A stretch of DNA of 44,004 bases, taken from positions 42,473 to 86,476 of the forward strand of contig NZ_JAAVBE010000003.1 of assembly GCF_014803725.1 (NCBI RefSeq). The letters run 5' to 3'. Shown here one piece after another: positions 966 through 20,623 of the stretch. Source of the stretch: Desulfovibrio sp. (GTDB lineage Bacteria; Desulfobacterota; Desulfovibrionia; Desulfovibrionales; Desulfovibrionaceae). Below the pieces are notes generated by a model. The model had not been told where the DNA came from, searched no databases, and saw only the letters and a program-made list of their open reading frames with translations. The number at the start of each line of letters is the position of its first letter. The stretch's first letter is position 1. A program made the translations under genes and the position numbers.

Positions 966-1388
966 CTAGTTGCGCACCGCCAGGAGATCAACGCCCGTAT
1001 TGCGCAGCACCCGCTCGGTGATGGAGCCGAGCAGCATGTCGCTGATACCGTCGCGGCCGTCAGTATACATGACGATGAGGTCGACCTTTTCCTCATCGGC
1101 GATGCGCACGATGGTCTCGGCGATGGTGCCAGGCTCCACGCGGGTGTGGAAGGCCGCGCCCGCATTCTCGAGGATCTCGATGATGGGGCAGAGCAGGGTC
1201 ATGCCCTCGGCCGATTCCTCGCGCTGCAGCTCCACGCGCGCCTCGCCCCCCACCACCTGCGAGATGGGCTCGGTCACATGGAGCAGGACGATCTCGCCCG
1301 AGCAGACGGCCATGGCCTTCTCCAGGGCCTTCCGGGAGCGTTCGCCGCGGGATTCGCCGTTGACCGGCAAAAGAACCTTGCTGTACAT
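966..1388 (-). CDS. Universal stress protein, UspA family
   Basis: A 140-residue single-domain Usp protein starting MYSKVLLPVNGES. The beta1 strand and early loop are present. The C-terminal region VDLIVMYTDGRDGISDMLLGSITERVL resembles the ATP-binding G2xG9xG(S/T) region of UspA proteins, with GISDMLLGS supplying most of it. ATG 1388 is chosen because it follows a near-perfect ribosome site, AAAGGAGG, at good spacing. An in-frame extension upstream starts far from any ribosome site. Such proteins are cytoplasmic and typically bind ATP or support survival under stress or respiratory arrest; the specific role here is unknown. It lies downstream of the Ccm operon's last gene with about 126 bases between, so it probably has its own transcript. 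Confidence 0.88.
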   Translation of the reverse strand: MYSKVLLPVNGESRGERSRKALEKAMAVCSGEIVLLHVTEPISQVVGGEARVELQREESAEGMTLLCPIIEILENAGAAFHTRVEPGTIAETIVRIADEEKVDLIVMYTDGRDGISDMLLGSITERVLRNTGVDLLAVRN

Positions 1389-1514
1389 GACGCCTCCTTT
1401 CGATTCGCGCCCCGGAGCCACCGCATGGCGCGCCATTGCCCGGGCCTTGCGTTTCCATGTTGGCATGTCGCGGCGCTTTGTGCAAGCCCGAAGGCCGCAA
1501 CGGGCAATGCCGCC

Positions 1515-4500
1515 TCACCTCCGCTGGGTCAGGGCGATGCGGTTGCGCTCCACCGAGACCTCGAGCTCGGGGAGCAGGTCGCGGAGCGCGTTCATGTCGC
1601 CGGCGCGCCCGGCCCGCTCAACGCAGCGCGCCATGCGCGCGAGCACCCTGAAACCGAAGCTCTCCGACTCTTCCGCGATGGCCGCTGCGGCCTGGGCCAC
1701 CATCTGCCCGCGCCCCGCGGCATGCGCGGAAACGGCTTGCGCCATGGCCGCGTCCAGGCGCTCCACCAGGGCGAGGATGGCAGGATCCGGGCCGGGAGCC
1801 TCTGGCGCTTGCGGCACGGGCGACGTGGCCGCCGCTTCCGCTGGGGCAGGGGCGTCGGCCTCGTTCCTACCCGGCGCAAATGCCGAAGAAACTGCGCTCG
1901 TCACAAGCGAGACGCTTCTTTCCACAAAGTCCGTCACGCCGCCCGGGGCCTTGGGCGCGGGCTTTTCGGGGGCATCCACTGGCGTGGCGCCCACGATGAA
2001 ATCCATGAACGAACCGCCCTCGTCGGCAGCGGCGCCCGACGCGGAGGCGCTTGCGGCCGCTGCCGCTGCTTCCGCAGGGGCTGCGGGCGCAGCCACTTCC
2101 GCCGCCGACTCCGACTGCGGCGCCTTGCGCAGGATGGGCATGGGCTCGCCCACCCATTCCCCGGGCACGGGCACGCTGGGGCTCGTGTAGCCGGTGCGCG
2201 CTGGCTGCACGGCGTGCGCCGGCCGCGATGGAGCCGGGCGCACCTCTTCCTTCCGGGGTTCGCCGGGCCGGGGAGTTTCAGGCGCTTCCGGCGCGTCACG
2301 GCGCGCCACCGGCGTCCCGATGGGCATGGGTTCGCCCACCCATTCCCCGGGGCTCGCCAGGGCCGGGCTCACATAGACGGACGCCCGTGCGGCCGTTACG
2401 GGCGCGGCCGGCTGGCGCGCTGGGTCTGAACGTGATGGTTCGGGGCGCGGAGGCTCTGCAGCCAGGACTCCGGCAGACTCCTGCACGGGCGTCTCGCCTG
2501 CCTCATGGCCGTCTGCCGGGCCAGCCTCCCGGGCGACGGCTTCCTCCCGCTCCGCTTCAGGCGCGACCACAGGGGCAGGAGCCTGCGGCATTTCCGCGCC
2601 CTGCCCTTCCGGCGTGCTCCCGGCTGCGCTCACTGCCTCCACCGCAAAGTCCATGAGGGAGGAGACGGGCTCGTCGGTGGCCGGCGCAGCGGTCGCCCCC
2701 GCGGGCTGCCCGGGAGTCTCGGGAGTCCCGGCCGCAGGCGTTTCCGCTGCCGGCTCCGACGCGGTCCCGGTTTCGGCCGGGCTTTCCATCGCCTCAGCTG
2801 CGGCCGGCTGTTCGGATTCTGCGGGCGGTTCGGCTGCCGGTGCCTGCTCCTCGGACACGCCGGTATTTTCCGCCTGTTCCGCCAGCAGGAAGTGCCACTC
2901 CTCGCCGCTCAGTTCCCCGGCCGTCTGGCCCTCCCCGGCTTCAGGAGCCGGAGCGGCCGCTTCTGTCACGGCTGAAACTTCCGCTTCTTCCGACGCGGAT
3001 GGCGCCCCGGCCGAGGCGTCGGTCGCTTCAGCTGTAGCGCCGGCATCCTCGGGAGCCGCCTCAGCTTCCGGGGCAGGTGCGACTTCCTGGGCCGGCTCAG
3101 TATCCGCAGTCTCGGCAGCCGGAGCAGCCGCCCCGGCCTCAGGGGTTTCTTCCCCACCCTCCGGGCTCTTTTCCGATGTGCCGGCCTGCGAAGGCGCCGC
3201 AGCTTCTTCAGCATCCGCCGCCGTTTTCTGCGGCGCGGGCCGGCTGCGGCGCACCCCGCGCATCACGTCGCGCACGGTCTGGCGCAGCACCTCGGCGTCC
3301 ACGGGTTCCAGCATGGCATGGGTGAAGCCGCTGTCCGCGAGCAGGTTCCACTGACTGTCGTCCACGGTGACGGCCAGCACCTTGCAGCCGGAAAGGCCGG
3401 CCCCGGCGGCTGCCTCCATGAACCTTGTCACCATGTCCGCCGCGGCGGGCAGGGCATAACGTCCCTGCGCCACCAGGAGCACGGCCGGGTCCGCCTCATG
3501 GCGCCTGAGAGCCTCGTGCTCGCTCGCCGCCTCGCTCACCCGGCAGGGGAGATCCGCCACCATGCGCGCGAGCTCGCGCCGCTGCTTAGGGTCATCCGCC
3601 ACGATGATGACATGCGCAAGGCTCTCGCCCTGCATGTCGTCCGCGCTGTCCTCCAGCGGCTCCAGATGCAGCGAAAAGGCGATGGTCGTGCCATTGGGAC
3701 CATATTCCATGCCCACATAGCCGCCGTGGCGCGCTGCCAGCTCCCAGGCGCGGGCGAGCGCGAGGCTCGAGCGCTCCCGCGGGGGCGCGCCGCTGCCCGT
3801 GTCCGTCACGGTGAAGAGGATATTGCCGGGGTCGCTGCTCTCGGGCACGCGCCGCGCCGAAAGATGCACCGCTCCCTGCCGGGTGGCCCGCACCGCGCTT
3901 TCGAGCAGGAGGCCCAAGGTCTCGCCGAGCGTCTGTGCATCGCCGCGATAGAGCTGCCCGAGATGCGGGGGCATGTACCAGGCAAGGCCGATGCCGGCAT
4001 ATTCCGCGGCCGGCGCCACGGCCCCATGGGCTTCGCGCAGCAGGCGCTGGAGATCGAAGGCCGTACCGGCCTCCGCGCCTTCCGCCGCTGGCGCGCCGTC
4101 ACCCGAAGCACCGCCCTCCCCTGCGTCCGCATGGCTGAGCACATCCGCCATGCGCCGCGCCGCATCCAGCATGGCCGCGGCATATTGCCGCACGGCCGGG
4201 GGCAGCGCGCATTGCTCGAGGGCCGCACCCTCGCGCAAAAGGTCGTCCAGCGGCGCGCGCAGGGCGCCCTCGCGAGCTTCGGCCCGGGCCCGTTCCGCCG
4301 AGCCCGGGGCCTGCGTGGCAGCTTCGTCCGCGGCCTCCCCGCCGCCTTGGGCCTCGGCAGCGGCCGGGGCCTTGCCACCCGAAACGAGACGCAAATTGGG
4401 ATCGTCCAGTGGATGATCGAGATTGATGATGCCGCCCTCGTCCGCGTCCTTTCCGTCAGCCGGCCGCGCCTTGGGAGCGGCGGCTTCCGCTGTCATGTCC

Positions 4501-5774
4501 GCCGGAGTGCCCGTGGCCGCGATGAGCAGCGCGCTCAGGGCCGTGCCCCACAGGGGCGCCGAGGCGAGCAGGTTCGGCGGGATGCCGAAATCCAGCCCGA
4601 GCAGCCCGGCCGCCACGAAGAGCGGCGGCAGCAGGCAGCCGAGCAAAAAGCGGCGCGCCCCGCCAAGGCCCATGAGCCACGCGCCGAGAGCCGTGGGCAC
4701 AAAGAGCAGGGTGCCGGCGGGCCAGAGGTCGAGCCAGCGGTCGAGCCACGCCCAGCCGGGCACGAGCGGCAGCAGGGCCAGCGCCGCGCCGGGCAGGGAA
4801 AGCAGGAGGAGCTGGATGTCGAGCCCGCGGGCGCGCTGGCGCGTGCGCATGAGGTGGCGCCCCACATGCGGCAGGAGCATGAGCGCGATGCCCGGGGCCA
4901 TGGTGGCCGCGGCATGGCCGAGCATGGAGCGGTGCGGGCCGGCCTCCGGCATGCCAAGCAGGGCCTGGCCGAGCGCCACGGCCACATACAGGGCGGTCCA
5001 GACGCGCCATTGCCCGTTTTCGGAGAGCCCGCGCAGAAGGCACAGGAGCATGACCACGCCGAGGGCGAGGATGGCGCCGGTGCGCGCGAGGCTGCCCCAG
5101 TTGGTGGCCGCGTCCGCCGGGGTGCGCACCATGGGCGAGAACCACGGCCCGGGCAGCCCGTCAAGGCGGATATAGCAGGTGAGCGGTTCGGCGCCAGCCT
5201 CGGGCAGGAGCAGCACATTGCGCTGCGCCGGGCTCGATTCGCGCCACTCCAGCGCGCCGCTCAGGTCATTACGCTCCGGCTCGTAGAGCATGGGCGTGCC
5301 GGGGATGCTCTCGCCCATGTCGAGCAGGAGGGTCGCCGGGCGCGCGCCCGCGGCCAGGGGCGCCAGCGTGAAGCGCAGCCACATGACGCCTTCGGTGCGC
5401 GGCAGCTTTTCGAGCGCAAGCGGCACAAAGGCGTCGGCCCGGTCTGGCGCCGCGGCCTCCTCGATGTCGAGACTGCCGCTTTCGTCCAGCAGATAGTCCA
5501 GATAGGGCAAGAGGGACAGGTTGGGGCCGGCGCCCGTAACGGGCAGCATGGCCTGCTGCGGCCGGGCACCCGGTGTACGCGACGCCTGCAATGCGGCGAG
5601 CGCCGGCGCCACGGCGCGGGCGGAGACTTCGGGCCGCGCTTCCGGCAACAGGGCGTCAGCGGCAAGGCTCGGCAGCGCCAGCGAAAGGAGCGCCAGCAGC
5701 GCAACAAGGGCCATGCCCGGCATGAAGGCCCCACGCGGGCGCCGGGCCGGGACTTTTCTCCCCAGGGTCGTCAT
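1515..5774 (-). CDS. 7TMR-DISM hybrid histidine kinase-like protein with degenerate phosphorelay residues
   Basis: 1419 residues from ATG 5774, four bases after the upstream TPR gene stops. Order: signal or TM segment (18-38); periplasmic 7TMR-DISM extracellular-like domain (about 80-220); seven-TM block (230-420); DHp-like helix pair (about 495-550); HATPase_c-like domain (573-710) retaining a G1-type DTGSG (658-662); receiver-like domain (720-840); a roughly 490-residue Ala/Glu/Pro-rich linker; HPt-like helical bundle (1330-1419). By eye the phosphotransfer residues are absent. The H-box reads GALRAPL at 503-509 where HELRTPL is usual. The N-box reads LLLES without Asn. The receiver keeps the acidic pair D727/D728 but lacks the Asp, and its conserved Lys is E823. 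The HPt His position is Ala. It is probably a membrane sensor or scaffold pseudokinase. It is last in the ccm-TPR operon. Domain names are inferred from pattern, not from a search. Confidence 0.82.
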   Translation of the reverse strand: MTTLGRKVPARRPRGAFMPGMALVALLALLSLALPSLAADALLPEARPEVSARAVAPALAALQASRTPGARPQQAMLPVTGAGPNLSLLPYLDYLLDESGSLDIEEAAAPDRADAFVPLALEKLPRTEGVMWLRFTLAPLAAGARPATLLLDMGESIPGTPMLYEPERNDLSGALEWRESSPAQRNVLLLPEAGAEPLTCYIRLDGLPGPWFSPMVRTPADAATNWGSLARTGAILALGVVMLLCLLRGLSENGQWRVWTALYVAVALGQALLGMPEAGPHRSMLGHAAATMAPGIALMLLPHVGRHLMRTRQRARGLDIQLLLLSLPGAALALLPLVPGWAWLDRWLDLWPAGTLLFVPTALGAWLMGLGGARRFLLGCLLPPLFVAAGLLGLDFGIPPNLLASAPLWGTALSALLIAATGTPADMTAEAAAPKARPADGKDADEGGIINLDHPLDDPNLRLVSGGKAPAAAEAQGGGEAADEAATQAPGSAERARAEAREGALRAPLDDLLREGAALEQCALPPAVRQYAAAMLDAARRMADVLSHADAGEGGASGDGAPAAEGAEAGTAFDLQRLLREAHGAVAPAAEYAGIGLAWYMPPHLGQLYRGDAQTLGETLGLLLESAVRATRQGAVHLSARRVPESSDPGNILFTVTDTGSGAPPRERSSLALARAWELAARHGGYVGMEYGPNGTTIAFSLHLEPLEDSADDMQGESLAHVIIVADDPKQRRELARMVADLPCRVSEAASEHEALRRHEADPAVLLVAQGRYALPAAADMVTRFMEAAAGAGLSGCKVLAVTVDDSQWNLLADSGFTHAMLEPVDAEVLRQTVRDVMRGVRRSRPAPQKTAADAEEAAAPSQAGTSEKSPEGGEETPEAGAAAPAAETADTEPAQEVAPAPEAEAAPEDAGATAEATDASAGAPSASEEAEVSAVTEAAAPAPEAGEGQTAGELSGEEWHFLLAEQAENTGVSEEQAPAAEPPAESEQPAAAEAMESPAETGTASEPAAETPAAGTPETPGQPAGATAAPATDEPVSSLMDFAVEAVSAAGSTPEGQGAEMPQAPAPVVAPEAEREEAVAREAGPADGHEAGETPVQESAGVLAAEPPRPEPSRSDPARQPAAPVTAARASVYVSPALASPGEWVGEPMPIGTPVARRDAPEAPETPRPGEPRKEEVRPAPSRPAHAVQPARTGYTSPSVPVPGEWVGEPMPILRKAPQSESAAEVAAPAAPAEAAAAAASASASGAAADEGGSFMDFIVGATPVDAPEKPAPKAPGGVTDFVERSVSLVTSAVSSAFAPGRNEADAPAPAEAAATSPVPQAPEAPGPDPAILALVERLDAAMAQAVSAHAAGRGQMVAQAAAAIAEESESFGFRVLARMARCVERAGRAGDMNALRDLLPELEVSVERNRIALTQRR
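2133..2351 (-). repeat. Two copies of a coding repeat in the kinase-like protein's linker
   Basis: Two nearly identical stretches of about 33 bases begin at 2133 and 2319. Each encodes PGEWVGEPMPI, preceded by a similar YxSP segment. They lie in the disordered Ala/Glu/Pro-rich linker between the receiver-like and HPt-like domains. The conservation of Trp, Gly and Pro inside otherwise low-complexity sequence suggests a short binding motif rather than drift. Confidence 0.7.
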
Positions 5775-5778
5775 AGCG

Positions 5779-6624
5779 TCATTGTCTCCGAGTCGGCTCT
5801 TCCAGCCGCCGCACCATTTCCGAAACCGTGCGGCCGTCCGGCGCGCGCGCCTGCGGATTGAGCGTGAGCAGCCTGCGCCAGGCAGCGATCGCCTCATCCT
5901 TGCGCCCGAGGTCGTTATAGAGCACAACGCCGGCATTAAACAGGGCGTTCTCGTGGCGCGGATCGGCCGCGAAGGCCTTGCGGAAGCACTCCACCGCCTT
6001 TTCCGGCGCCTTGTTTTCCCGATACATGATGCCGAGATCGGTCAGTACGTCCGCATTGCCGGGGGCGAGCGCCAGCGAGCGCTCATAGGCCTGGATGGCT
6101 TCACTGACGCGGCCGGCGTCAAAAAAGAGGTTGCCGAGCTGCGTCCAGTTGTCGGCCGAGGAGGGATCCTTGCGGACGGCCGCTTCCAGCGAGGCGAGGC
6201 GCGCGGCGAGTTCTGGCGGCAGCCCGCGCGCGGCGTCCCCGGGGCCGGGCGCCGGTTGGGCAGGCGACGGCGGTGCGGCAGCGGGCGCCGCTTCCGCGAG
6301 CACCTGCTGCGGCGCGACGGCGGTGTCGCGGCCGCGAATGTCCTGAAGGACGCCGGGCAGGAGCGTCCCCAGATAGAGGCCGAGGACAAGGGTCAGGACC
6401 ATGCCCGCGATGCAGGTGGAGAGCCGCACCGACCGCCCCGGAGCAGGACGCTTGGACGATACGCTCCCCCCAGGTCCCGGCCGCTTCGGCGCCTTCTTTG
6501 CGGTTGGCGCAACGGGAGCTGCCGGGGCCTCGGCAGCCTCGCCGGAAACGGGCGTCTCTTCCTGATTCACCACGGCCGGACGCCGCGGGGCGTCGGCATT
6601 TTTCCTGGATCTGCGACGGGCCAT
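5779..6624 (-). CDS. Membrane-anchored TPR protein of the Ccm operon
   Basis: 281 residues from ATG 6624 (MARRRSRKNA). A basic, Pro/Ala-rich cytoplasmic N-terminus leads to one TM helix (about 70-93). A periplasmic linker and about three tetratricopeptide repeats follow (about 160-265), for example NWTQLGNLFFDAGRVSEAIQ and DVLTDLGIMYRENKAPEKAV. In-frame starts at ATG 6669 and TTG 6702 are possible; 6624 is preferred for its GAGGTGGAG upstream. TPR proteins next to ccm genes (CcmI/CycH/NrfG-like) usually hold apocytochrome c for heme ligation, so that role is plausible but inferred. Its stop lies four bases before the kinase-like gene, which suggests translational coupling. Confidence 0.8.
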   Translation of the reverse strand: MARRRSRKNADAPRRPAVVNQEETPVSGEAAEAPAAPVAPTAKKAPKRPGPGGSVSSKRPAPGRSVRLSTCIAGMVLTLVLGLYLGTLLPGVLQDIRGRDTAVAPQQVLAEAAPAAAPPSPAQPAPGPGDAARGLPPELAARLASLEAAVRKDPSSADNWTQLGNLFFDAGRVSEAIQAYERSLALAPGNADVLTDLGIMYRENKAPEKAVECFRKAFAADPRHENALFNAGVVLYNDLGRKDEAIAAWRRLLTLNPQARAPDGRTVSEMVRRLEEPTRRQ

Positions 6625-6761
6625 CTCCACCTCGCTCGGGCGCGCAGGGCGCCGGGCCGCATGCTCCATAATGGCACCGCCGCCGGGGGAAATGCCCGGC
6701 AACGGGCCGCGATTGTTTCTCTTTCTCTACAACCGGCGCAAAAAAGAGGCAAGGGCGGCCG

Positions 6762-7454
6762 TCAGCGCGTGCCGGCGGGTTGCCCCCCGGTTTTTGCGGG
6801 CCGGCCCTTCTTGGAGGCAGCCGCCTTGGCAGCATCGCCCGAGGGCGCGCCGACCAATTTTTCTTCAGCGCCCTCCCCTGCGGGCAGCGGGGCCTTTTCC
6901 AGCTCCTCGCGGATGGCCTGGCGCAGGCTTTCGTCCGCGTCCGGCGCGTGCAGCGCCTCGGTCAGGTGCTCCACCCCGCGGGCGGGCTCGTTGAGATAGT
7001 GGAGGTAAAGCACGCCCAGGCTGTAGCGCATGGCCGCGCTGTCCTTGTCCCTGAGCGCCTCCTCGAGGAGTTTCGCCGCTTCGGCGTGCTTGCCCTGATT
7101 GTGGCGGATGACGCCGAGCAGGTAGCGCGTGCGGCCGTCGCGCGGGTCCAACGCCAGGGCGCGCGTGGCAAAGCTCTCGGCGCCGTCCCAGCTGCCCATG
7201 GTCATGAGGCGCTCGGCGATCTCCACGAGCGCGGCCTTGTTGCCCGGGTCTTTCGCCACTTCCTGCATGAGGCGCCCCACCTCGTCGGTGCCGGGGGCCG
7301 GGGCCTGCGCCGCGGGCTCGTGCGTGTGGCGGACGGTGAGGCCCGTGGAGGTGAAGCGCTCCGCCAGGGATGCCGCCAGCATGGCCACGAGCGCGATCCC
7401 GAGACTGATGATGAGCACCCGCGCGCGCGCCGGAATGGTGAATTCGCTAGCCAC
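6762..7454 (-). CDS. CcmI-like TPR protein
   Basis: About 230 residues: one N-terminal TM helix (about 10-32, VLIISLGIALVAML) and a periplasmic TPR region (about 60-170), with repeats such as NKAALVEIAERLMTMGSWDGAE and RTRYLLGVIRHNQGKHAEA. The tail is Lys/Ala/Gly-rich. The start is uncertain. GTG 7454, preceded by GGGAG and overlapping the ccmD stop by eight bases, is chosen; TTG 7478 is an in-frame alternative. The architecture and the place directly after ccmD match the CcmI/CycH role of presenting apocytochrome c to the heme ligase. That function is inferred. No Zn or heme motif is visible. Confidence 0.78.
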   Translation of the reverse strand: MASEFTIPARARVLIISLGIALVAMLAASLAERFTSTGLTVRHTHEPAAQAPAPGTDEVGRLMQEVAKDPGNKAALVEIAERLMTMGSWDGAESFATRALALDPRDGRTRYLLGVIRHNQGKHAEAAKLLEEALRDKDSAAMRYSLGVLYLHYLNEPARGVEHLTEALHAPDADESLRQAIREELEKAPLPAGEGAEEKLVGAPSGDAAKAAASKKGRPAKTGGQPAGTR

Positions 7455-7584
7455 GGGCGCTGCGCTCCCACCGGGCAAGACGCAGGGCCAGCGCCCGCTG
7501 CCGCCCGCCCAGGAAGGCGAGATAGGCGCCGAGGCCGATCCAGACCGCGGCGTTGGCGCCCATGAGCCAGTACAGGGTGTCCAT
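7447..7584 (-). CDS. ccmD: CcmD-like small membrane protein
   Basis: A 45-residue protein from ATG 7584 with a strong GGAGG ribosome site. It has one TM helix (MDTLYWLMGANAAVWIGLGA) followed by an Arg-rich cytoplasmic tail (RQRALALRLARWERSARG), the standard CcmD layout. CcmD stabilises the CcmABC complex and helps release heme-loaded CcmE. It sits between ccmC and the TPR genes, overlapping the next gene's start. The identification rests on size, topology and position, because CcmD sequences are poorly conserved. Confidence 0.82.
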   Translation of the reverse strand: MDTLYWLMGANAAVWIGLGAYLAFLGGRQRALALRLARWERSARG

Positions 7585-7621
7585 GATTTCCTCCGTCAAA
7601 AAGACGGCGCGGCCGCGCCGT

Positions 7622-8281
7622 TCAGTCGTCTTCTTCCGCGGCGGCATCCAGCCGGGCCGTGAGGTCGAGCTGGCGCTTGCGCAGCCACACAAGGCCGGCC
7701 CAGAACAGGCCGAGCGCCACCACGCAGGCCACGGCCGTGAGCTTCATTTCCGGCTCGAGGCCCCCCTCCCGGGAGGCGAAGACCGCCGGATGGATGGAAC
7801 GCCAGATTCGCGCCGACACGAAGACCAGCGGCACGTCCAGAAAGGCCGCCACGCCCACCACCGCGCAGACGAGGCGCCGGCGTTCCGGGGCCATGTCGAG
7901 CCCGCGCAGCAGCAGGTAGGCCGCATAGACGAACCACATGACGAGCGCGGTGGAGAGGCGCGGGTCCCACGTCCACCAGACGCCCCAGGAGCGGCGCGCC
8001 CAGAGCATGCCCGTCACGAGGGTCAGGCCGCTGAAGAGCACGCCCACCTCGGCGGCGGCGGCGCACAGCCTGTCGGCCGCGTTGCTGCGCCGCAGGAGCA
8101 CGGCGAGGGAACCCAAAAAAACGATGAAGAAACTGATGAGCGCCCACCACGCGAGCGGCAGGTGCAGATAAAAGATCTTCTGCATCAGGCCGAGGGTGGC
8201 TTCCTCCGGCGCATAGCACCAGATGAGCCATTGCGCCGCGGCCATGGCGAGGGCGCCGGCGAGGGCGAGCAACTGGGGCAT
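7622..8281 (-). CDS. ccmC: Heme exporter/lyase subunit CcmC
   Basis: 219 residues with six predicted TM helices and the WWD heme-handling signature WGVWWTWDPRLSTALVMW. Conserved His residues flank it on the periplasmic side (YLHLP and SIHPAV). CcmC loads heme onto the chaperone CcmE and is the WWD member of the CcmABCD complex. ATG 8281 directly follows the ccmB TAA, so the two are translationally coupled. Length is close to the family norm. The Glu/Asp-rich C-terminus (AAAEEDD) is a small local feature. Confidence 0.95.
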   Translation of the reverse strand: MPQLLALAGALAMAAAQWLIWCYAPEEATLGLMQKIFYLHLPLAWWALISFFIVFLGSLAVLLRRSNAADRLCAAAAEVGVLFSGLTLVTGMLWARRSWGVWWTWDPRLSTALVMWFVYAAYLLLRGLDMAPERRRLVCAVVGVAAFLDVPLVFVSARIWRSIHPAVFASREGGLEPEMKLTAVACVVALGLFWAGLVWLRKRQLDLTARLDAAAEEDD

Positions 8282-8959
8282 TTAGTCCTCCCCCGGATAG
8301 ATGAAGCCGAAGAGCACGAGGCCCGCGCCCAAAAAGACCGCATCGAAGGCCGCCGCCAGCCGGAGCCACGCCGAGGGGCCGTCCGGCGAGGGCGCGCCCA
8401 GGCACTGGGCGCCCACCCCGATGCCCGCCAGGAGGAGCGGTGTCAGCAGCGGGAAGAGGACCACCCCGAGCAGGGACTCGCGCCCGGACTGCCCCTGGCC
8501 CAGCGCCCCGAGCAGCGAACCCAGGGCGCACATGCCCGCATCCACGAGCGCGAGTGTCGCGAGGCCGGCCTGCGGCTGCGCCGTCACGCCCTGCCCGAGA
8601 AAGACCATGGCCGCCGGCAGGAAGACGGCCTGCGCCAGCAAAAGCAGCACCAGCCCGGCCGCGAGCTTGCCGAGCCACACCGCCTGCACGGGCGCCGGGC
8701 AGAGCGCGAGGCCGAGGCGCGCGGCATTGGCCTCTTCGAGGTCATAGAGGCGGTTGAAGATGAGCACCTGCGAAAAGGCGGAAGCCAGCCAGAACATGGC
8801 AGCGGCCGCCTGCGGGCCCACCTTTTCGCCGGGCCCCTGCGCAAGGCTGAACACGAAGAGCAAGAGCAGCCCGAGCAGGAGCGCCTGAAGCAGCCCGTTG
8901 CCGCGCGCCAGGGTGAGCAAAAGGTCCTTGCGGGCGATAGCGAGGCTCAGGCGGAACAT
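8282..8959 (-). CDS. ccmB: Heme exporter permease CcmB
   Basis: 225 residues with about six TM helices, starting MFRLSLAIARKDLLL. It contains the family's LIFNRLYDLEEANAARLGL stretch. CcmB is the ABC-transporter membrane subunit that, with CcmA and CcmC, drives release of holo-CcmE. ATG 8959 has a G-rich ribosome site and overlaps the end of ccmA by 13 bases. Typical length, no anomalies seen. Confidence 0.94.
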   Translation of the reverse strand: MFRLSLAIARKDLLLTLARGNGLLQALLLGLLLLFVFSLAQGPGEKVGPQAAAAMFWLASAFSQVLIFNRLYDLEEANAARLGLALCPAPVQAVWLGKLAAGLVLLLLAQAVFLPAAMVFLGQGVTAQPQAGLATLALVDAGMCALGSLLGALGQGQSGRESLLGVVLFPLLTPLLLAGIGVGAQCLGAPSPDGPSAWLRLAAAFDAVFLGAGLVLFGFIYPGED

Positions 8960-9622
8960 GCGCCCCCCTCTTGGGCGAAAAAGTCCGCCGCCGGCCCGGC
9001 ATAGACGGTCTTGCCCCCGGCGAGCGCCAGCACCCGGTCGGCCAGGGGGGCGTCGCCGGCCAAATCATGGCTCACCAGCACCACGCAGGCGCCGCGGCCG
9101 CGTGCGTCGGAGATCTCCCGGCGCAGGACGGCGCGCGAGGGCGCGTCGAGGCCGGTGGCCGGCTCGTCCAAAAGCAGGATCTCCGGCGCGAGCATGAGCA
9201 CCCGCGCGAGGTTGAGGCGCTGCGCCATGCCGCGCGAGAAGACGCGCGCCCGCTCATGAGCATGGTCTCCGAGGCCCACGCGCTCGAGCAGGGCAAAAAG
9301 GGCGTCCTCGTCCAGCGCGAGCCCGTGGGCCGTGCGCCAGAAGGCGAGATTTTCCAGCGCCGTAAGGCCCGGATAGAGAAAGGTGGCGTGGCCCACATAG
9401 CCTAAGCGCGCTTCCGCGCCGTCCGCCCCCCCGGAGACCACCACGCGGCCCGCGCTCGGCCGGGTAAGGCCGGCCATGATCTTGAGCAGGGTGCTCTTGC
9501 CCGCGCCGTTGCCCCCGGTGAGCAGGGTGACCGTTCCCTGCGGAAAGGCGGCGTCCACCTGGCGCAGCACGCGCGCCGCGCCGTAGCGCTTGCCCACGCC
9601 CTCGAGCAGGAGCGCCGCGTCT

Positions 9623-9630
<8 letters not shown>
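8947..9630 (-). CDS. ccmA: Heme exporter ATP-binding protein CcmA
   Basis: 227-residue ABC ATPase. Walker A is GGNGAGKST, the signature is FSRGMAQRLNLAR (a modified LSGGQ, common in CcmA), Walker B is ILLLDEPATGLD, and the H-loop is LVSHDL. It energises the CcmABCD complex that frees heme-loaded CcmE. The start is GTG 9630, which overlaps the ccmF stop by eight bases. It is smaller than a general ABC ATPase, as expected for CcmA. Confidence 0.95.
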
Positions 9631-11569
<1,939 letters not shown>

Positions 11570-11649
11570 GGGCATTCCTTGCGGGGCCTTGGAGGGGGGT
11601 GCCGCGCGCCGGGGCTGGGCCCGGGCCGGGCCTGTCATGGACAGCCTGA

Positions 11650-11678
11650 CAGATACTTCACCATACGCCGCCTGTCAA
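11650..11678 (-). promoter_or_regulatory. Candidate sigma70-type promoter of the ccm operon with an overlapping inverted repeat
   Basis: On the minus strand a perfect TTGACA (11678-11673) and TATCTG (11655-11650) are separated by 17 bases. This predicts a start about 75 bases upstream of ccmF. TGACAG (11647-11652) and CTGTCA (11672-11677) form an inverted repeat over both elements, which could be an operator. The -10 match is mediocre. Confidence 0.4.
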
Positions 11679-11840
11679 CGGGATGCGGCATTGCGGCGGA
11701 CGGGTTTTCGGGCCCGCCGCGACCGTCCCGGCCCCGGGCGCCGGGATTTCCGCTCGACCTTTTTGGCGCTCTTTGGCACACTGATGCCCCCCGAAACCCG
11801 GCGCGCCGGCCACGCCCCGCGCCCCAACGGCGAGCCAGCC

Positions 11841-13670
11841 ATGAAATTCGTCCCCGCACAGGTCAGCTTCTTTCTCAAGCAGCACAGCGTGCGCCGCAAT
11901 CTCGTCGCCCTCACGCGCTTCATGGCCATGCTCGTGGGGCTCATCCTCCTTTATTCCGCGCTCTTCCACGTCATCATGCACTACGAGGGGCACGACTATT
12001 CGTGGATCACCGGCCTCTACTGGACGCTGACGGTCATGTCCACCCTGGGCTTCGGGGACATCACCTTCCATTCCGACCTCGGCATGGTGTTTTCCATCGT
12101 CGTCCTCCTCTCCGGCGTGATGCTGCTGCTCATCATGCTGCCCTTCGCCTTCATCCAGTTCTTTTACGCGCCCTGGCTCAAGGCGCAGGAAAAGGGCCAC
12201 ACCCCTCGCGCCGTGGCGCCGGACATGAAGGGCCATGTCATCGTGGTCAGCACGAGCCCCATCGCCCTCAACCTCGTGGACGACCTCAAGGGCTATGGCG
12301 CGCGCTGCGTGCTCCTCTGCAATGACAGCCAGAAGACCCTCGACCTGCTCGACCGAGGCTACGACGCCATCGTGGGCGAGCACGACTCCGCCACGGTCTA
12401 CCGCAACCTGCGCCTCGCCGAGGCGGCCATGCTCGTGGTGCTCGACAGCGATGTGCGCAACACCAACATCGTCTTTACCGCGCGTGACGTGGCGCCGGAT
12501 GTGCCCATCGTGGCCTCGGCCCAGAGCGAGGACGCCATCGACATCCTGCGGCTGGCTGGCAGCTCGCGCGTCTTCCAGTTCCACCGGCTGCTCGGCGAAG
12601 CCCTGGCCCGGCGCGTGCTCAACGCCAACGCCCGCTTCAGCATCGCGAGCCGCTACAAGGAGCTGGTGGCCGCGGAAGGCCCGGTCATGCGCACGCCGCT
12701 CGTGGGCAAGACCCTGAGGAAGAGCGGCCTGCGCAACGCCTCTGGCGCAAATGTCGTCGGGCTGTGGGAGCGGGGGCGCTTCGTTTTGCCCGGGCCCGAC
12801 ACCGTGCTCACGGCCACCATGGTCATGGTCATCGTGGGCGACATGCAGCAGATCCAGGCGGCCAACGCCTTTTTGAGCGAGAAGGACGGCCCCGAGGCAG
12901 CGGCGCCCAAAAATGGGGACAAGAACGGCAAGCCCGAGGCCCCCGCCGCCAGGCCCGAGGGCGCGGACGCCGGGGAAAAGGGCGAGAAGGCGGAGAAGAA
13001 GGACAAGCTGGGTGCGGCCCCGGTGGTCATCCTCGGCTGCGGCCGCGTGGGCCGCGACGCCGCGCGCCAGCTCGAGCGCAGCGGGCGCCCCTACAGCGTG
13101 GTGGACAAGACGCCCAAGGGCGGCTTCCTCAAGGACCACCTCGTCATCGGCGACGCCGCGGATCTCGAGGTGCTGGAGCGCGCCGGCATCCGCACCGCGC
13201 CCTCGGTCATCATCACGACGCACGACGACGACACCAATATTTATCTCACCCTCTACTGCCGGCGCCTGCGCGAGGACATCCAGATCATCAGCCGCGCCAC
13301 GCTTGACCGCAACGTGGGCATCCTGCACGCGGCCGGCGCCGACCTCGTGCTCTCGCTGGCCTCCATGGTCACGAGCAGCATCATCAACCTGCTGGCGCCC
13401 GGCAAGGTGCTCATGATCAGCGAGGGACTGAACATCTTTCGCGCCACCGTGGGCAAGAGCCTTGCCGGCAAGCCGCTCATGGGCAGCGGCATCAGGAGCC
13501 TCACGCATTGCAGCGTGGTGGCCCTGCGCGGGGCCGACGGCATCCTCCACGCCAACCCGGACCCGAGCCACGTTTTCGAGGAAGGCGAGGAAATGTACCT
13601 CATCGGCGATTCGGAAGCGGAAAAGACCTTTTACGAGACCTTCGGCAAGAACGAGCCGCTCACGGCCTGA
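11841..13670 (+). CDS. Two-TM potassium channel with tandem RCK (TrkA-N) domains
   Basis: 609 residues from ATG 11841 (MKFVPAQVSF). TM1 spans about 24-46. The pore loop carries filter TLGFGD (68-73), a GFG variant of the K+ filter. TM2 spans about 81-112. RCK1 begins near 131 (HVIVVSTSPIALNLV) and lacks the GxGxxG loop. RCK2 (about 392 on, VVILGCGRVGRDAA) has it. A roughly 40-residue Lys/Glu/Pro-rich spacer separates them. The C-terminus resembles a TrkA-C domain. It probably gates K+ flux in response to a nucleotide or ion ligand. An in-frame upstream extension exists but is Arg/Pro-rich and not membrane-like, so it is excluded. The gene is divergent from ccm and ends 12 bases before the M20 gene stop. 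Confidence 0.88.
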   Translation: MKFVPAQVSFFLKQHSVRRNLVALTRFMAMLVGLILLYSALFHVIMHYEGHDYSWITGLYWTLTVMSTLGFGDITFHSDLGMVFSIVVLLSGVMLLLIMLPFAFIQFFYAPWLKAQEKGHTPRAVAPDMKGHVIVVSTSPIALNLVDDLKGYGARCVLLCNDSQKTLDLLDRGYDAIVGEHDSATVYRNLRLAEAAMLVVLDSDVRNTNIVFTARDVAPDVPIVASAQSEDAIDILRLAGSSRVFQFHRLLGEALARRVLNANARFSIASRYKELVAAEGPVMRTPLVGKTLRKSGLRNASGANVVGLWERGRFVLPGPDTVLTATMVMVIVGDMQQIQAANAFLSEKDGPEAAAPKNGDKNGKPEAPAARPEGADAGEKGEKAEKKDKLGAAPVVILGCGRVGRDAARQLERSGRPYSVVDKTPKGGFLKDHLVIGDAADLEVLERAGIRTAPSVIITTHDDDTNIYLTLYCRRLREDIQIISRATLDRNVGILHAAGADLVLSLASMVTSSIINLLAPGKVLMISEGLNIFRATVGKSLAGKPLMGSGIRSLTHCSVVALRGADGILHANPDPSHVFEEGEEMYLIGDSEAEKTFYETFGKNEPLTA

Positions 13671-13682
13671 GGCCGCGCCCCC

Positions 13683-14894
13683 TCAGGCCTGACTGCCGAA
13701 GCGGGCCGCGGCTTCGAGCGCCGAGAGCGCCAGGAGCTTCGCCCGCGGCACCAGGGTGGAGAGGCGCAAAAATTCCTGTTCCGTGTGGATATGCTCGCCC
13801 TCGGGCCCCATGCAGCAGATGGTGGGCAGCCCGAGCGCGCTCGAGCACAGGCCGGACTCGGCCGCGCTCTCGTAATGCTGGCCGGTGAGGCGCATGCCGA
13901 GGCTTTCGCCCGCTTCCCGCACCAGCGCGAAGAGGTCGTCCCCGGCCTGCGTGCGCTCCAGCGGGTACAGGCGCAGGCCACCGCTCACGCTGGCGCTGGT
14001 GCCCGGCACGTGGACGCGGCGCGCCGCCTCGCGGATGGACTCCACCGTGTTCACGCCGTCCTCAAGGCGCCTGTAGGTGAGGTGGATGAGCGCTTCGGCC
14101 CAGGGCGCCACGGAATTGGCGGAAATGCCCCCCTCGATCATGCCGGCGTTCACCGTGAGGCCGCGGTCAAGATCCAGAAGTTCATTGATCTCCAGCAGCT
14201 TGTGCGCGAGATCGATGACCGCCGAGGCGCCGTCCTCGTAGTTGCGGCCCGCATGAGCGGCCTTGCCCGTGACGCGCAGCCGCATGTGGCCCGAGCCCTT
14301 GCGCGACAGGGTGACGCGCCCGCCAAGGCCCCCGGGTTCGGCGCAGAACACGGCGAGCGCGCCGGGCAGGCGGCTTTTGAGGGCAACCGAGCCGGTGGGC
14401 GAGCCCAGCTCCTCGTCAGGGGAGAACATGAGCGTCAGCGGGCAGGGCAGGAGGCGCCGCAGGGCGCGCGCGGCGAAGAGCATGGCCACGAGGCCGCCCT
14501 TCATGTCCGCGGCGCCCGGCCCCGTGACCGTGTCGGCCGCGCGGTCGACCCGGAAGGGGCGCCGGGCCGCCTCCCCTTCGGGGAACACCGTGTCCATATG
14601 GCCGATGAAGGCGATGCCCGGCCCCGCGGCAAGCGAATGGCTGCGCGCGGTGCGGGCATGGCCGAGCCCCTGCTGCCACGCTTCGTCCGGGGCAATGGGC
14701 GGCTTGGACAGGCGTTCGGTGTCAAAGCCGGCCTCGGCGAGCCACGCGGTGAGCCGGTCGCCCACGCGGTCCACCCCGGCGCCCGAGGCCGTGGGGGAAT
14801 CGATGTTCACCAGTTCTTCAAGCAAGGCGAGCATTTCCCCTTCGGCGCCCGCAAACTCGGCGTCCAGGGCCCGTTTCCACTCCGAAAGATCCAT
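13683..14894 (-). CDS. M20 family metallopeptidase (glutamate carboxypeptidase-like), copy 1
   Basis: 403-residue dinuclear-zinc hydrolase of the CPG2/ArgE type. Visible ligands and catalytic residues: H99 and D101 in GHMDTVF, D130 in DMKGG, the E161/E162 pair in PDEELGS, E186 in CAEPGG, and a late His in GEHIHTEQE. The dimerisation domain (about 200-310) contains KAAHAGRNYEDG. ATG 14894 has AGAGGA upstream. The family removes terminal glutamate or acyl groups from peptides and N-acyl amino acids; the substrate here is unknown. No signal peptide is present at this start. The frame continues upstream to TTG 15122 with a hydrophobic stretch, judged accidental. It is strongly similar to the second M20 copy at 17311-18555. 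Confidence 0.9.
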   Translation of the reverse strand: MDLSEWKRALDAEFAGAEGEMLALLEELVNIDSPTASGAGVDRVGDRLTAWLAEAGFDTERLSKPPIAPDEAWQQGLGHARTARSHSLAAGPGIAFIGHMDTVFPEGEAARRPFRVDRAADTVTGPGAADMKGGLVAMLFAARALRRLLPCPLTLMFSPDEELGSPTGSVALKSRLPGALAVFCAEPGGLGGRVTLSRKGSGHMRLRVTGKAAHAGRNYEDGASAVIDLAHKLLEINELLDLDRGLTVNAGMIEGGISANSVAPWAEALIHLTYRRLEDGVNTVESIREAARRVHVPGTSASVSGGLRLYPLERTQAGDDLFALVREAGESLGMRLTGQHYESAAESGLCSSALGLPTICCMGPEGEHIHTEQEFLRLSTLVPRAKLLALSALEAAARFGSQA

Positions 14895-15131
14895 AACGTC
14901 CTCTGCCAGCAAAGTCACATTGCACGATGTAGTTGAGGGAGATTCCTTAAGTCCGTCTGGAGCGAAGCGGAAGACGGGTGCTGGTGCCGGAAGAATCCTA
15001 AAAAATAAGATTTTTTTCTGACGCAGCCAGCAGCAAAAAGGCTGTTTTTGACGGATAATTTCGGCATTACCCAGGCAGCACAAGCACGCCAACAGCACGG
15101 ACGCAAACAAAATCTCCGGCAACTGCGCCCC

Positions 15132-16187
15132 TCACTGCCCCAGGGCGCCGACAGCTTCCAGATAGCGGGCGTCGATGGCCTCGGCGATGCGCGCAGCGTC
15201 TTCCGCCCGGGCCTCGCCTGCATTGAAGGCCGCCACCTCTTCGAGCCACTTCTGCAACTGGCTTTCGCCGGCTGCACCGGCCATGAGGCGCAGATTTTCC
15301 CGCAGGTCAAAGATCTTGTGGGCCTGGAGGTCCCGTAGGGCTTCCTCTTCCGTCAGGGCCACGCCGGCCCAGGTCTTCAAAAACTCCCTATAGAGCGGGA
15401 GCGCCCCCTGGGCGCCCAGCGCACGCAGTTCGCCCACGGCGCGGAAGTAGACGCCGAGCGTCTTTTCCAGCGTTTCGGGCCGGTCGGCGGCGGCCTTTTT
15501 GTCCGCCACGAGGAGGATGGGCTGCGAGATGCCGCAGTCCCGCGAGTCCGCGGCCATGACAAGGCCCTTCTGTTCCGCCTGGAGCGTCTGCGGCGACCAC
15601 AGCACCACGGCGTCCCCGAGGCCGCCCGCAAAAGCGCCCAGCGCCTTGGCCGGGGGCATGTCGTCGATGCGCACGTCCTTTTCCGTGAGGCCGAGCACCT
15701 TGAGCCAGCCGCGCAGCATCTGCGCCGCCGAGGTATTTTTGGGGCAGAGGATGCGCTTGCCCCGCACGGTCTCAGCGCTGCCGCGCACCCTGGGGAAGGC
15801 CGGGTTGGCCCCCTCGGCCGCGAAGATGAGGCTCCCCTTGCGCACGAAAACGGCGTTGGCGCCCGACTCGTCATTGGCCACGGCGACGATGGAGAGCCTG
15901 TCGCTCAAAATGGCGCCCATGGCGGGCACGGCGCCGCAGCCGGCGAGAAGCCAGTCATAGGCGAGCAGGCCCTGGACGATCTCGGCCCCGGAGGAAAAGC
16001 GGAGCATACGGATCTCGAGCCCCTGTTCCCTGTCCCAGCCCTGCTGCACCGCGTACCACATGGGGAAGGCCTCGTTCTCGCCCATCCACGCGGTCTTGAG
16101 CTCCACATTCTCGGCTGCATGCGCCCCGGAGCAGGCGAAAAGCCCCAACACCACCGCACACGCCCAAGCCAGAAAAAACTTGTTCAT
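15132..16187 (-). CDS. NMT1/SsuA-like periplasmic substrate-binding protein
   Basis: About 351 residues from ATG 16187. A signal peptide (MNKFFLAWACAVVLGLFAC) carries a possible lipobox LFAC, with AHA as an alternative cleavage site. The mature part begins ELKTAWMGENEAFPMWYAVQQGW, the opening of NitT/TauT-type binding proteins. FRKG-type and AAQMLRGWLKVLGL segments follow, as in ABC-type aliphatic sulfonate or pyrimidine-precursor binders. No cognate ABC permease or ATPase gene lies in the window. It lies in the TTT operon, 86 bases after tctC, separated by a strong hairpin. It may serve the TTT permease or act as a sensor; that is inference. Confidence 0.82.
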   Translation of the reverse strand: MNKFFLAWACAVVLGLFACSGAHAAENVELKTAWMGENEAFPMWYAVQQGWDREQGLEIRMLRFSSGAEIVQGLLAYDWLLAGCGAVPAMGAILSDRLSIVAVANDESGANAVFVRKGSLIFAAEGANPAFPRVRGSAETVRGKRILCPKNTSAAQMLRGWLKVLGLTEKDVRIDDMPPAKALGAFAGGLGDAVVLWSPQTLQAEQKGLVMAADSRDCGISQPILLVADKKAAADRPETLEKTLGVYFRAVGELRALGAQGALPLYREFLKTWAGVALTEEEALRDLQAHKIFDLRENLRLMAGAAGESQLQKWLEEVAAFNAGEARAEDAARIAEAIDARYLEAVGALGQ

Positions 16188-16216
16188 CGCCGTCCCCGTC
16201 AAAACTGCATCACAAA

Positions 16217-16260
16217 GGCCCCGATGCGGCGCTTTTCCTGCCGCCGGCCGCATCGGGGCC
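16217..16260 (-). terminator. Intercistronic hairpin between tctC and the second binding-protein gene
   Basis: The arms 16217-16230 and 16247-16260 are perfectly complementary over 14 bp (GGCCCCGATGCGGC), with a 16-base loop. On the minus strand the stem lies directly after tctC and is followed by TTTGT rather than a full T-tract. This fits a partial terminator or a 3' RNA-stabilising stem that raises tctC transcript levels. Confidence 0.6.
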
Positions 16261-16273
16261 GCAAAACACGGGC

Positions 16274-17248
16274 TTACTTCAGGTTGCTCGCCTTCAAAAG
16301 GTCGCCCACGAGGGTCCACATCTGGTCCATCTCCTTCTGGAACTCGGCAGCCGGGAGATAGTCGACAGTGAGGCCGGCCTTGGCGAACTTTTCCTTCACG
16401 TCGGGGTCTTCCAGAGCTTCCTTGACGAGGTTCTGCATGGTGATGACCTTATCGTGCGGCACCTTGGCCTGGGTGATGAGCCCGTGCGGCGACGGGAAGA
16501 CGAATTCCTCGCCCAGCTGTTCCGCAAAGGTGGGCACATCGGGATATTCGGGCAGGCGCTGCGGGCTCGTGACGCCGATGATGCGGAAGTCGCCGGACTG
16601 CACATAGGGCTTCTGGTTGGTGATGACGCCGAAGCCGCTCGTGATGTGCTTGCCAAGCAGGGCCGTGGAGACCTCGTGCCCGCTGGTGTAGGCCACATGC
16701 GGGAGCTCCACCCCCGGGAACTTCTGCATGACGCCGCTCATGAACAGGCGCTGCGAGGAGAGCGCGCCGTGCGTGGCGAAGTTGACCTTGCCCGGGTCGG
16801 CCTTGGCCGCGTTGATGAGGTCCTGGAAGTTCATGATGCCCGAATCCGCGCTCACGGCGAGGCTCAGCCACATGTTGGTGATCTGCACCACGGCCTGGAA
16901 GTCCTTGAGGGTGTAACCGGTCTTCTTCACCTGGGGCGTGGTGGAGAAGGTGGCCAGCGCGGGGAAGCCGAAGGTGTAGCCGTCCGGCTTGGCCTTGGCC
17001 ACGTCCAGCATGGCCGGGGCGCCGGCGCCGCCCGCCTTGCAGATGATGTTGAGCGTGATCTTGTGTTTGGTCTGGAACCACTCGGCGAGGATGCGCGCGG
17101 CAATGTCCACCGCGCCGCCGGGCCCGAAGGGGATGATGATGTTCACGGGCCGGTCGGGATAGGCGGCCTGTGCGGGGGCCGGGGCCACGGGCGCGAGCAG
17201 GGCGCAGGCCAGGGCGCACACGCAGAACATTCGCAACACTCTCTTCAT
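16274..17248 (-). CDS. tctC: TTT-family solute-binding protein (TctC/Bug)
   Basis: 324 residues from ATG 17248, with GGAGG six bases upstream; the extension to 17260 is rejected. A signal peptide ends at AQA before AYPDRPVNIIIPF, the hallmark Bug-family opening. GPGGAVDIAARILAEW and KAGGAGAPAMLDVAKAKPDGYT follow, the loops that bind the carboxylate in TctC proteins. It captures substrate in the periplasm and delivers it to TctAB. Bug proteins bind citrate, dicarboxylates, glutamate and many other carboxylates, so specificity cannot be read here. The neighbouring M20 hydrolases suggest an N-acyl or peptide-like carboxylate (inference). Confidence 0.93.
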   Translation of the reverse strand: MKRVLRMFCVCALACALLAPVAPAPAQAAYPDRPVNIIIPFGPGGAVDIAARILAEWFQTKHKITLNIICKAGGAGAPAMLDVAKAKPDGYTFGFPALATFSTTPQVKKTGYTLKDFQAVVQITNMWLSLAVSADSGIMNFQDLINAAKADPGKVNFATHGALSSQRLFMSGVMQKFPGVELPHVAYTSGHEVSTALLGKHITSGFGVITNQKPYVQSGDFRIIGVTSPQRLPEYPDVPTFAEQLGEEFVFPSPHGLITQAKVPHDKVITMQNLVKEALEDPDVKEKFAKAGLTVDYLPAAEFQKEMDQMWTLVGDLLKASNLK

Positions 17249-17310
17249 CGCTTCCTCCATAACGGGTTATTCGTCCGGGGGCATGCCCCTTTTCCAGTGC
17301 CGTTTGCCGC

Positions 17311-18555: not shown

Positions 18556-18606
18556 CGTCTCCCCCCGGGTGCCGGTGTTTTCCGCTGTTCTGGCCGCGCG
18601 GGCCGG

Positions 18607-20097: not shown

Positions 20098-20118
20098 GGT
20101 TCCTCCCGCGGGGCGGAC

Positions 20119-20604
20119 TTAGGGCAGCATGACCTGGAAAAACCAGCCGAAGGCGACGAGCAGGCACACCGTCGTCAGGCTGGCCACAAGAAAGACCTCC
20201 AGCGGCTTTCGGCGCCCGAGCAGCGGCAGCGCGAGGCAGAGGAAGAAGAAGGTGCTGACGCCGAAGGCCCCGCCCCAGGCGAAGGGCGGCGACTCCATGT
20301 GCGCGAAGACATCGCCGAGGCCGATGACGCCGGCGAGGTAGAGAAAGAACAGCCCCACGAAGGCGCCCACCTTCTTGAGCACGCGCCGGTCGGGCCAGTA
20401 GGGCCTGGCGGGCGCGCGCACGAAGCCCTTGACGATGAGCACCGCGCTCAGGAAGGAGAGCAGGATGAGCACCGCTTTGGGCACGCCGGCGGGGCCGATG
20501 TTCTCGAGGGTGCCCCCGGCCGGAAGCTCCGCAACGCTTGAAAAGCCGATGGCGCAAAAGACGAGCAGAAGGAGGCCGCTTACAACGTCGGTGGGGCTTT
20601 TCAT
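20119..20604 (-). CDS. tctB: TTT transporter small permease TctB
   Basis: 161 residues, four TM helices (about 8-26, 42-60, 84-104 and 122-155). This is the usual TctB size and topology, and the protein is the poorly conserved partner of TctA. ATG 20604 follows GGAG, and the stop lies 21 bases before tctA. The assignment rests on topology and on the tctB-tctA gene order. No unusual features. Confidence 0.9.
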   Translation of the reverse strand: MKSPTDVVSGLLLLVFCAIGFSSVAELPAGGTLENIGPAGVPKAVLILLSFLSAVLIVKGFVRAPARPYWPDRRVLKKVGAFVGLFFLYLAGVIGLGDVFAHMESPPFAWGGAFGVSTFFFLCLALPLLGRRKPLEVFLVASLTTVCLLVAFGWFFQVMLP

Positions 20605-20623
20605 GGGCCGGCTCCGCGTGGGG

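Follow-up and report, generated by a model that had tools for sequence, protein, structure and literature searches.

A gene that closes the ccm gene cluster of Desulfovibrio sp. raises the question of what a protein built like a hybrid histidine kinase does when none of its phosphate acceptors appears to be in place. A preliminary description, made from the letters of the DNA, had noted that all three phosphotransfer sites seemed to be lost in an intact reading frame, and had proposed a selected role outside the phosphorelay. The window referred to below is the whole stretch of DNA analysed, with 44,004 nucleotides (assembly GCF_014803725.1, contig NZ_JAAVBE010000003.1, positions 42,473 to 86,476).

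Gene and genomic context

The gene and its neighbours are arranged in the window as follows.

1515..5774, minus strand: whole gene of the pseudo hybrid kinase (1,419 amino acids), delimited by the start ATG at 5774, the open frame and the orthologs
5779..6702, minus strand: TPR protein (CcmH/CycH TPR-like), immediately upstream; syntenic anchor
6762..11638, minus strand: TPR protein, ccmC, ccmB, ccmA and ccmF, upstream genes of a putative operon
966..1466, minus strand: downstream neighbour gene for a universal stress protein, which many orthologs also have nearby

The ATG at 5774 lies 4 bases past the last base (5779) of the TPR gene, and the frame is open throughout, as had been described. 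Orthologs are syntenic with respect to the TPR gene, and many of their loci include the ccm genes too. As a separate anchor, the TPR gene was found in 46 of 60 and in 54 of 79 family genomes asked; among 40 loci around it, the ortholog follows directly in 15 and does not in 25, and other loci share that order. A tie of the receptor to cytochrome c maturation, or to the operon, would be solely positional, drawn from gene neighbourhood.

Elsewhere in the window, the ORF of a TrkA-type channel (11568-13670, plus strand) and the beginning of the ccmF ORF on the opposite strand have 71 bases in common (11568-11638), where start choices may differ. Positions 13683-21346 hold two M20 peptidase genes, NMT1-like, TctC and TctA genes and a GntR/FCD regulator, and resemble an uptake and hydrolysis cluster.

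Domain organization

The protein can be divided into the following segments.

5658..5726, minus strand, residues 17-39: hydrophobic N-terminal segment, probably a signal peptide or first membrane helix, as judged by inspection
5130..5528, minus strand, residues 83-215: 7TMR-DISMED2 sensor (Pfam PF07696 above cut-off, E 2e-5, residues 90-204; family profile)
4488..5102, minus strand, residues 225-429: membrane region corresponding to 7TMR-DISM_7TM (family profile)
4125..4289, minus strand, residues 496-550: pseudo-DHp (family profile; helices in the predicted model, scarcely covered by structure alignments)
3642..4064, minus strand, residues 571-711: pseudo-CA (HATPase)
3237..3620, minus strand, residues 719-846: pseudo-receiver (REC)
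1800..3197, minus strand, residues 860-1325: long linker rich in Ala, Pro and Glu, presumably disordered, fast evolving (composition; dN/dS 0.22-0.80)
1527..1787, minus strand, residues 1330-1416: pseudo-HPt four-helix bundle

By its domain matches, the protein is classed as a DISMED2-bearing receptor of the 7TMR-DISM type, and it was the only protein matched in a search of its genome for a second DISMED2 protein. The membrane profile PF07695 is above cut-off in the ortholog L144 and below it in L112, L156, L103 and L097, and the window protein has no listed match to it. According to the predicted model, the DHp-CA-REC-HPt order and the folds of a hybrid histidine kinase are retained, with the DHp fold scarcely covered.

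Acceptor and catalytic sites

The aligned positions of the acceptor and catalytic residues are given below.

4266..4268, minus strand: Gly503 at the H-box His position, from alignment to active syntenic orthologs
3882..3908, minus strand, residues 623-631: N-box LLESAVRAT, without Asn
3747..3803, minus strand, residues 658-676: G1 Asp658 kept, ATP lid and G2 deleted
3594..3599, minus strand: A726-D727 at the REC acidic pair
3462..3479, minus strand: LLVAQG, with Gln770 at the REC phospho-acceptor Asp
3306..3308, minus strand: Glu823 at the conserved REC Lys
1683..1685, minus strand: Ala1364 at the HPt His position

The readings of the preliminary description were borne out at most of these positions. 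Active syntenic orthologs have the His of SHDLRTP in the column of Gly503, the N-box lacks its Asn, and the receiver has Gln770 in the acceptor column and Glu823 in place of the Lys. The Ala reported at the HPt His corresponds to Ala1364, with a register that depends on profile-profile alignment to the canonical HPts of relatives (E 0.00029, at a moderate probability of only 40.6%). The G1 box is kept as DTGSG at 658. G2 and the lid are removed outright and not simply degenerate: the stretch between the G1 Asp and G2 measures 12 residues, where active orthologs have 32, and about 20 residues of the ATP lid are gone. Only the acidic pair of the receiver (D727-D728), described as kept, needed correction, being half kept; its second acid stands as D727, but the first position holds A726 in the aligned register.

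An acceptor at the true aligned position of DHp, REC or HPt was looked for, and none was found. The idea that one had been overlooked by eye was accordingly rejected. Classical transmitter phosphatase activity was rejected as well, since the H+1 and H+4 residues of the DHp, which belong to the phosphatase motif described for RetS (PMC5992135), are likewise changed. As a control, all six HisKA stretches found in the genome of the window carry a normal H-box His. Autophosphorylation and relay in two-component systems need such acceptors and ATP-site features; with the His, the N-box Asn, the lid, the REC Asp and the HPt His all missing, neither is to be expected from this protein.

Distribution of the losses in Desulfovibrio

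A match was present in 36 of 36 same-genus genomes searched, with G004 holding only a C-terminal fragment at a contig end. In the larger set, 76 of 79 same-genus genomes, that of the window included, have a match without internal stop in the best stretch (E <= 1e-30), and the three without one are 63-77% complete. At the same threshold, a match occurs in 148 of 288 family genomes and in 17 of 44 genera. Many of these records are metagenome-assembled genomes.

Sites were tallied in 84 rows (49 Desulfovibrio, 8 of group g35 and 27 of other genera) after the fragments L038 and L061 had been dropped; gaps were not counted as letters. We take group g24 to be Nitratidesulfovibrio. In the Desulfovibrio rows, the H-box His was found in 0 of 46 with letters, the N-box Asn in 2 of 48 (one of the two without a CA), the REC Asp in 0 of 48, the REC Lys in 1 of 49 (Glu stands there in 38) and the HPt His in 0 of 36 with letters, while the G1 Asp was present in all 46 with letters. 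At the acidic pair, the first position is Ala in 37 of 48 rows and the second Asp or Glu in 34 of 48. Most rows have 12 residues from G1 to G2, while g32 has 8, and g20 and g33 have 13. Across all 84 rows, the HPt column, whose register has moderate probability, holds no His in 68 letters.

Two further sets gave similar counts. Twenty additional Desulfovibrio loci have the H-box His in 0 of 15, the N-box Asn in 0 of 20, the REC Asp in 0 of 19 and the HPt His in 0 of 15; the G1 Asp is found in 13 of 17 letters, and several of these loci have no CA. From the database, 120 proteins were listed out of 181 matching residues 570-850, the first being the protein of the window; this list is biased to close kin and overlaps with the genome sets. 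Among the matches listed, the H-box His (0/116), N-box Asn (0/120), REC Asp (0/120) and HPt His (0/97) are absent, the G1 Asp is present in 120 of 120, and the acidic pair has Ala at the first position in 97 of 120 and Asp or Glu at the second in 116 of 120. The losses thus hold genus-wide in Desulfovibrio, which answers the proposal to check whether orthologs keep the substitutions. A single decayed copy was also considered and was rejected, the acceptor losses being common to the whole genus and purifying selection acting on the dead domains.

Some orthologs are named 'response regulator', 'sensor histidine kinase' or 'HAMP domain-containing sensor histidine kinase' in the database despite the missing acceptors, and such names are misleading for members of this family.

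Active and partly degenerate orthologs

Orthologs with canonical residues do exist. The syntenic group g35, which is assigned to Halodesulfovibrio, keeps the His, the N-box Asn and the full lid in 7 of 8 rows and the REC Asp and Lys in 4 of 8; in its member L112, also syntenic, Pfam detects HisKA (8.8e-13), HATPase (8e-22) and REC (9.6e-16). The 27 rows of other genera, Mailhella and Bilophila assigned among them, have lost the H-box His and the lid, and retain the N-box Asn in 3, the REC Asp in 21 and the REC Lys in 17. An H in the H-box column of L116 was dismissed as an alignment accident, since no DHp was detected in this row.

A tree was built from the sensor and 7TM columns only, with 65 rows (19 of the 49 Desulfovibrio rows were left out); the H-box of L116 was set to 'absent' by hand, and gaps at the REC Asp column were scored 'absent'. 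Desulfovibrio rows fall on one side of a branch with support 97, and g35 on another with support 100. On this tree, which has little support at its deepest forks (53) and long branches for several rows, the H-box His needs 2 changes and the REC Asp 8. If the active state is taken as ancestral, the residues point to an order of loss in the Desulfovibrio line in which the HPt His went before the kinase, and the kinase before the receiver.

This order is not universal. Several further rows lost the REC Asp separately. L144-L146, a branch inside g35, are mirror-image intermediates, with kinase sites intact and the REC Asp and Lys lost; L143, a row of that branch, has lost DHp and CA too.

Domain loss and the linker motif

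The statement that all domains are kept is valid for the copy in the window, but not for some orthologs. DISMED2 and 7TM were detected in every row surveyed except L033, which stops at the end of its contig. DHp escaped detection in several rows (e.g. L031, L064 and L102), CA in L034-L036, L143 and L223-L225, with a remnant in L037, REC in L037, and HPt in L227-L229 and L106. Since each of the four pseudo-domains is undetected in some orthologs, no single one of them serves as a universal output. In L227, L228 and L229, which are Desulfovibrio rows, the detected domains end with the receiver and include no HPt. L115 (G072, group g18, to which Bilophila is assigned) has an open frame of about 2,900 amino acids, in which a large N-terminal extension or fusion precedes the sensor, whose start is near residue 1668.

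The linker of the window protein carries a motif in two copies.

2319..2351, minus strand: linker motif copy 1, PGEWVGEPMPI
2133..2165, minus strand: linker motif copy 2, PGEWVGEPMPI

In the genome of the window, DNA coding for the core of this motif was found twice, both times in this gene. EWVGEPxP-like motifs reach up to 6 copies per protein. Leaving out 4 truncated rows and 2 fragments, the motif is present in 36 of 44 complete Desulfovibrio rows with CA (8 have CA and no motif) versus 0 of 7 without CA. It is also present in 106 of 114 long relatives among the matches listed. Outside Desulfovibrio, 10 of 27 dead-kinase rows and none of the 8 g35 rows have it. On the tree, the CA was lost separately in L034-L036 and in L037; L223-L225 were not placed. 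The apparent association of motif and CA, which depends on few CA losses (at least 2 on the tree), is a lead and no proof. The repeated EWVGEPxP motif is a candidate docking site.

Selective constraint

Rates were estimated by domain with the NG86 method in 8 chosen pairs. The dN/dS ranged over 0.000-0.091 for CA, 0.000-0.463 for DHp, which is a short domain, 0.038-0.187 for REC, 0.032-0.165 for DISMED2, 0.014-0.150 for 7TM and 0.220-0.795 for the linker; for HPt it was 0.029-0.118 in the 3 pairs that cover it. The CA had the lowest value of all domains in 2 of the 8 pairs and shared it with DHp in 1; in 2 pairs only DHp was lower, and in 3 the CA ranked third or fourth.

Neighbour genes served as a control in one pair, the window and L066. 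Here, CA has 0.034 and DHp 0.065, and the neighbours have 0.102 (ccmF, covered in part), 0.104 (ccmB), 0.160 (universal stress protein), 0.168 (ccmC), 0.214 (TPR2), 0.248 (TPR1) and 0.275 (ccmA). Sensor, 7TM and REC, at 0.150-0.187, lie among the seven neighbour genes (0.10-0.28) and are no tighter. The emptied ATPase, at 0.034 against 0.10-0.28, is therefore held tighter than its working neighbours in that pair.

The check on purifying selection that the preliminary description had called for was thus positive on the dead domains (CA 0.00-0.09, REC 0.04-0.19, HPt 0.03-0.12). It had also named, as grounds for giving up its view, orthologs with canonical residues beside a drifting copy; such orthologs exist (in Halodesulfovibrio, and for the receiver only in several genera), but the low dN/dS shows that the Desulfovibrio copies are not drifting neutrally. 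Together, the missing acceptors and the low dN/dS of the dead domains support well the selected non-phosphorelay role that had been suggested.

Proposed function and alternatives

We consider it likely that the protein is a 7TMR-DISM-type receptor whose cytoplasmic phosphorelay was decommissioned in steps and which is kept as a binding and allosteric module. It is probably a phosphorylation-independent receptor or scaffold that signals by shape and binding in place of chemistry, and we infer for it the role of 'conformational sensor or scaffold' proposed earlier. A ligand or an envelope state at the DISMED2 sensor would shift the conformation of the 7TM region and of the pseudo-DHp/CA/REC/HPt stack. 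This stack would signal through protein-protein contact, with the CA surface, the pseudo-HPt and the EWVGEPxP linker motifs as likely contact sites, in a pathway that may be linked, by gene neighbourhood only, to cytochrome c maturation. A receptor relaying its conformation to bound partners would agree with the selection seen on the sensor, the 7TM region and the dead modules. A fuller account, in which a whole phosphorelay protein became a phosphorylation-free allosteric receptor in an order visible in living relatives (HPt His lost first, then kinase chemistry with the lid deletion of about 20 residues, then the REC Asp and Lys, the Lys mostly to Glu), with the emptied ATPase among the most constrained parts and an EWVGEPxP array that evolved in dead-kinase lineages to dock on the ATPase or its partner, is tentative, and we think it somewhat unlikely to hold in every part.

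Two rival explanations are narrower versions of this allosteric receptor, and the degrees of confidence given here are not exclusive. It is quite possible that the protein is a partner regulator like RetS or DivL, its pseudo-kinase core binding a functional histidine kinase or a response regulator to inhibit or tune it. ShkA, RetS, GacS and DivL rank among the best profile matches to solved structures, the predicted CA fold resembles those of RetS and GacS, the six HisKA kinases of the genome are possible partners, and RetS and DivL are published precedents (PMC5992135, PMC4211667). However, two of the three RetS mechanisms in the available text need the REC Asp and HExxT, both gone here (PMC5992135), and the DHp, through which such pairing usually takes place, went undetected in several orthologs and is thus excluded as a route common to all. 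A pseudo-CA that keeps an adenine-type pocket and reads a nucleotide or small molecule without catalysis is a more doubtful proposal. It would agree with the G1 Asp in 46 of 46 Desulfovibrio rows with letters and in 120 of 120 among the matches listed, and with the low dN/dS of the CA (no domain being lower in 3 of 8 pairs, and DHp alone in 2 more), but the N-box Asn, the lid and G2 are lost, the G1 Asp is found in only 13 of the 20 further Desulfovibrio loci, and several orthologs have no CA. DivL, in which the lid is present, binds an ATP analogue only weakly, at 57 uM, in the available account (PMC4211667).

Phosphate could in principle sit on another conserved residue, and His583 and His819 are found in 51 of 63 and 60 of 68 Desulfovibrio rows with letters, respectively. 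We regard such a displaced acceptor as very improbable, since both residues are off the acceptor positions and autophosphorylation is unlikely without the lid and the N-box Asn; moreover, His583, which lies in the CA, is also present in 5 of 7 g35 rows with letters, including L112 and L113 with intact kinase sites, and is thus no replacement for the lost His. In the window, the codons of His583 and His819 are at 4026-4028 and 3318-3320. Neutral decay of a former kinase, to which the loss of domains in places and the fast evolution of the linker might point, is scarcely credible when 76 of 79 same-genus genomes have a match lacking an internal stop, the dead domains are under purifying selection and the G1-to-G2 length is mostly constant at 12 residues.

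Comparison with known systems

We take the sensor of RetS from Pseudomonas aeruginosa to be of the 7TMR-DISM type, as in the receptor of the window. In the available text, RetS has a degenerate CA without G-boxes and does not autophosphorylate, but keeps an H-box with HExxT, and its REC Asp takes phosphate from another kinase (PMC5992135). The family described here is similar in its degenerate CA and in the CA fold, and differs from that description in having neither HExxT nor the REC acceptor and in possessing a pseudo-HPt as well as a long linker with motifs. RetS as so described would have its counterparts in the orthologs that combine a dead kinase with a canonical receiver, whereas Desulfovibrio gave up the receiver too.

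The ABL domain of RcsD is receiver-like. RcsD of enterobacteria, as far as the available account goes, is a membrane protein with an inactive kinase domain and the ABL domain before the Hpt (PMC13317618), but its HPt still has the reactive His and the protein takes part in a phosphorelay, whereas the family of the window has this His in 0 of 68 letters. DivL of Caulobacter also has its acceptor His replaced and its catalytic fold repurposed for binding; in the architecture described in the available text it has PAS sensors, a DHp-CA module only, an ATP lid, and no REC or HPt (PMC4211667). The best profile match was the ShkA structure 6qrj. ShkA, also of Caulobacter, has a pseudo-receiver that works by conformation (PMC7010744, PMC12632262), but in the text available it is a living kinase with a further, phosphorylated receiver (PMC12632262).

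Pseudo-histidine kinases (DivL, RetS, RcsD and a laboratory-evolved ChrS variant) and pseudo-receivers are thus already known from the literature as available, and a search of the open-licence literature returned no paper on this receptor family. On the evidence of the alignments, the family shows the features of a pseudo-histidine kinase, a kinase fold that lacks a catalytic feature and is retained by selection. The published examples compared, to the extent of their available text, keep at least one acceptor or lack other domains, and none is without all three acceptors. A 2025 review gives, in the portion available, acceptor-less fractions of 0.9% for HisKA, 0.9% for Hpt and 2.0% for receiver domains among those detected by Pfam (PMC12632262). 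Pfam HisKA was found in 0 of 31 Desulfovibrio members at E up to 0.1, so a Pfam-based census would overlook these proteins. Since its syntenic orthologs range from fully active through half-dead to fully dead, the family makes the role of a two-component scaffold that works free of phosphate testable by comparison.
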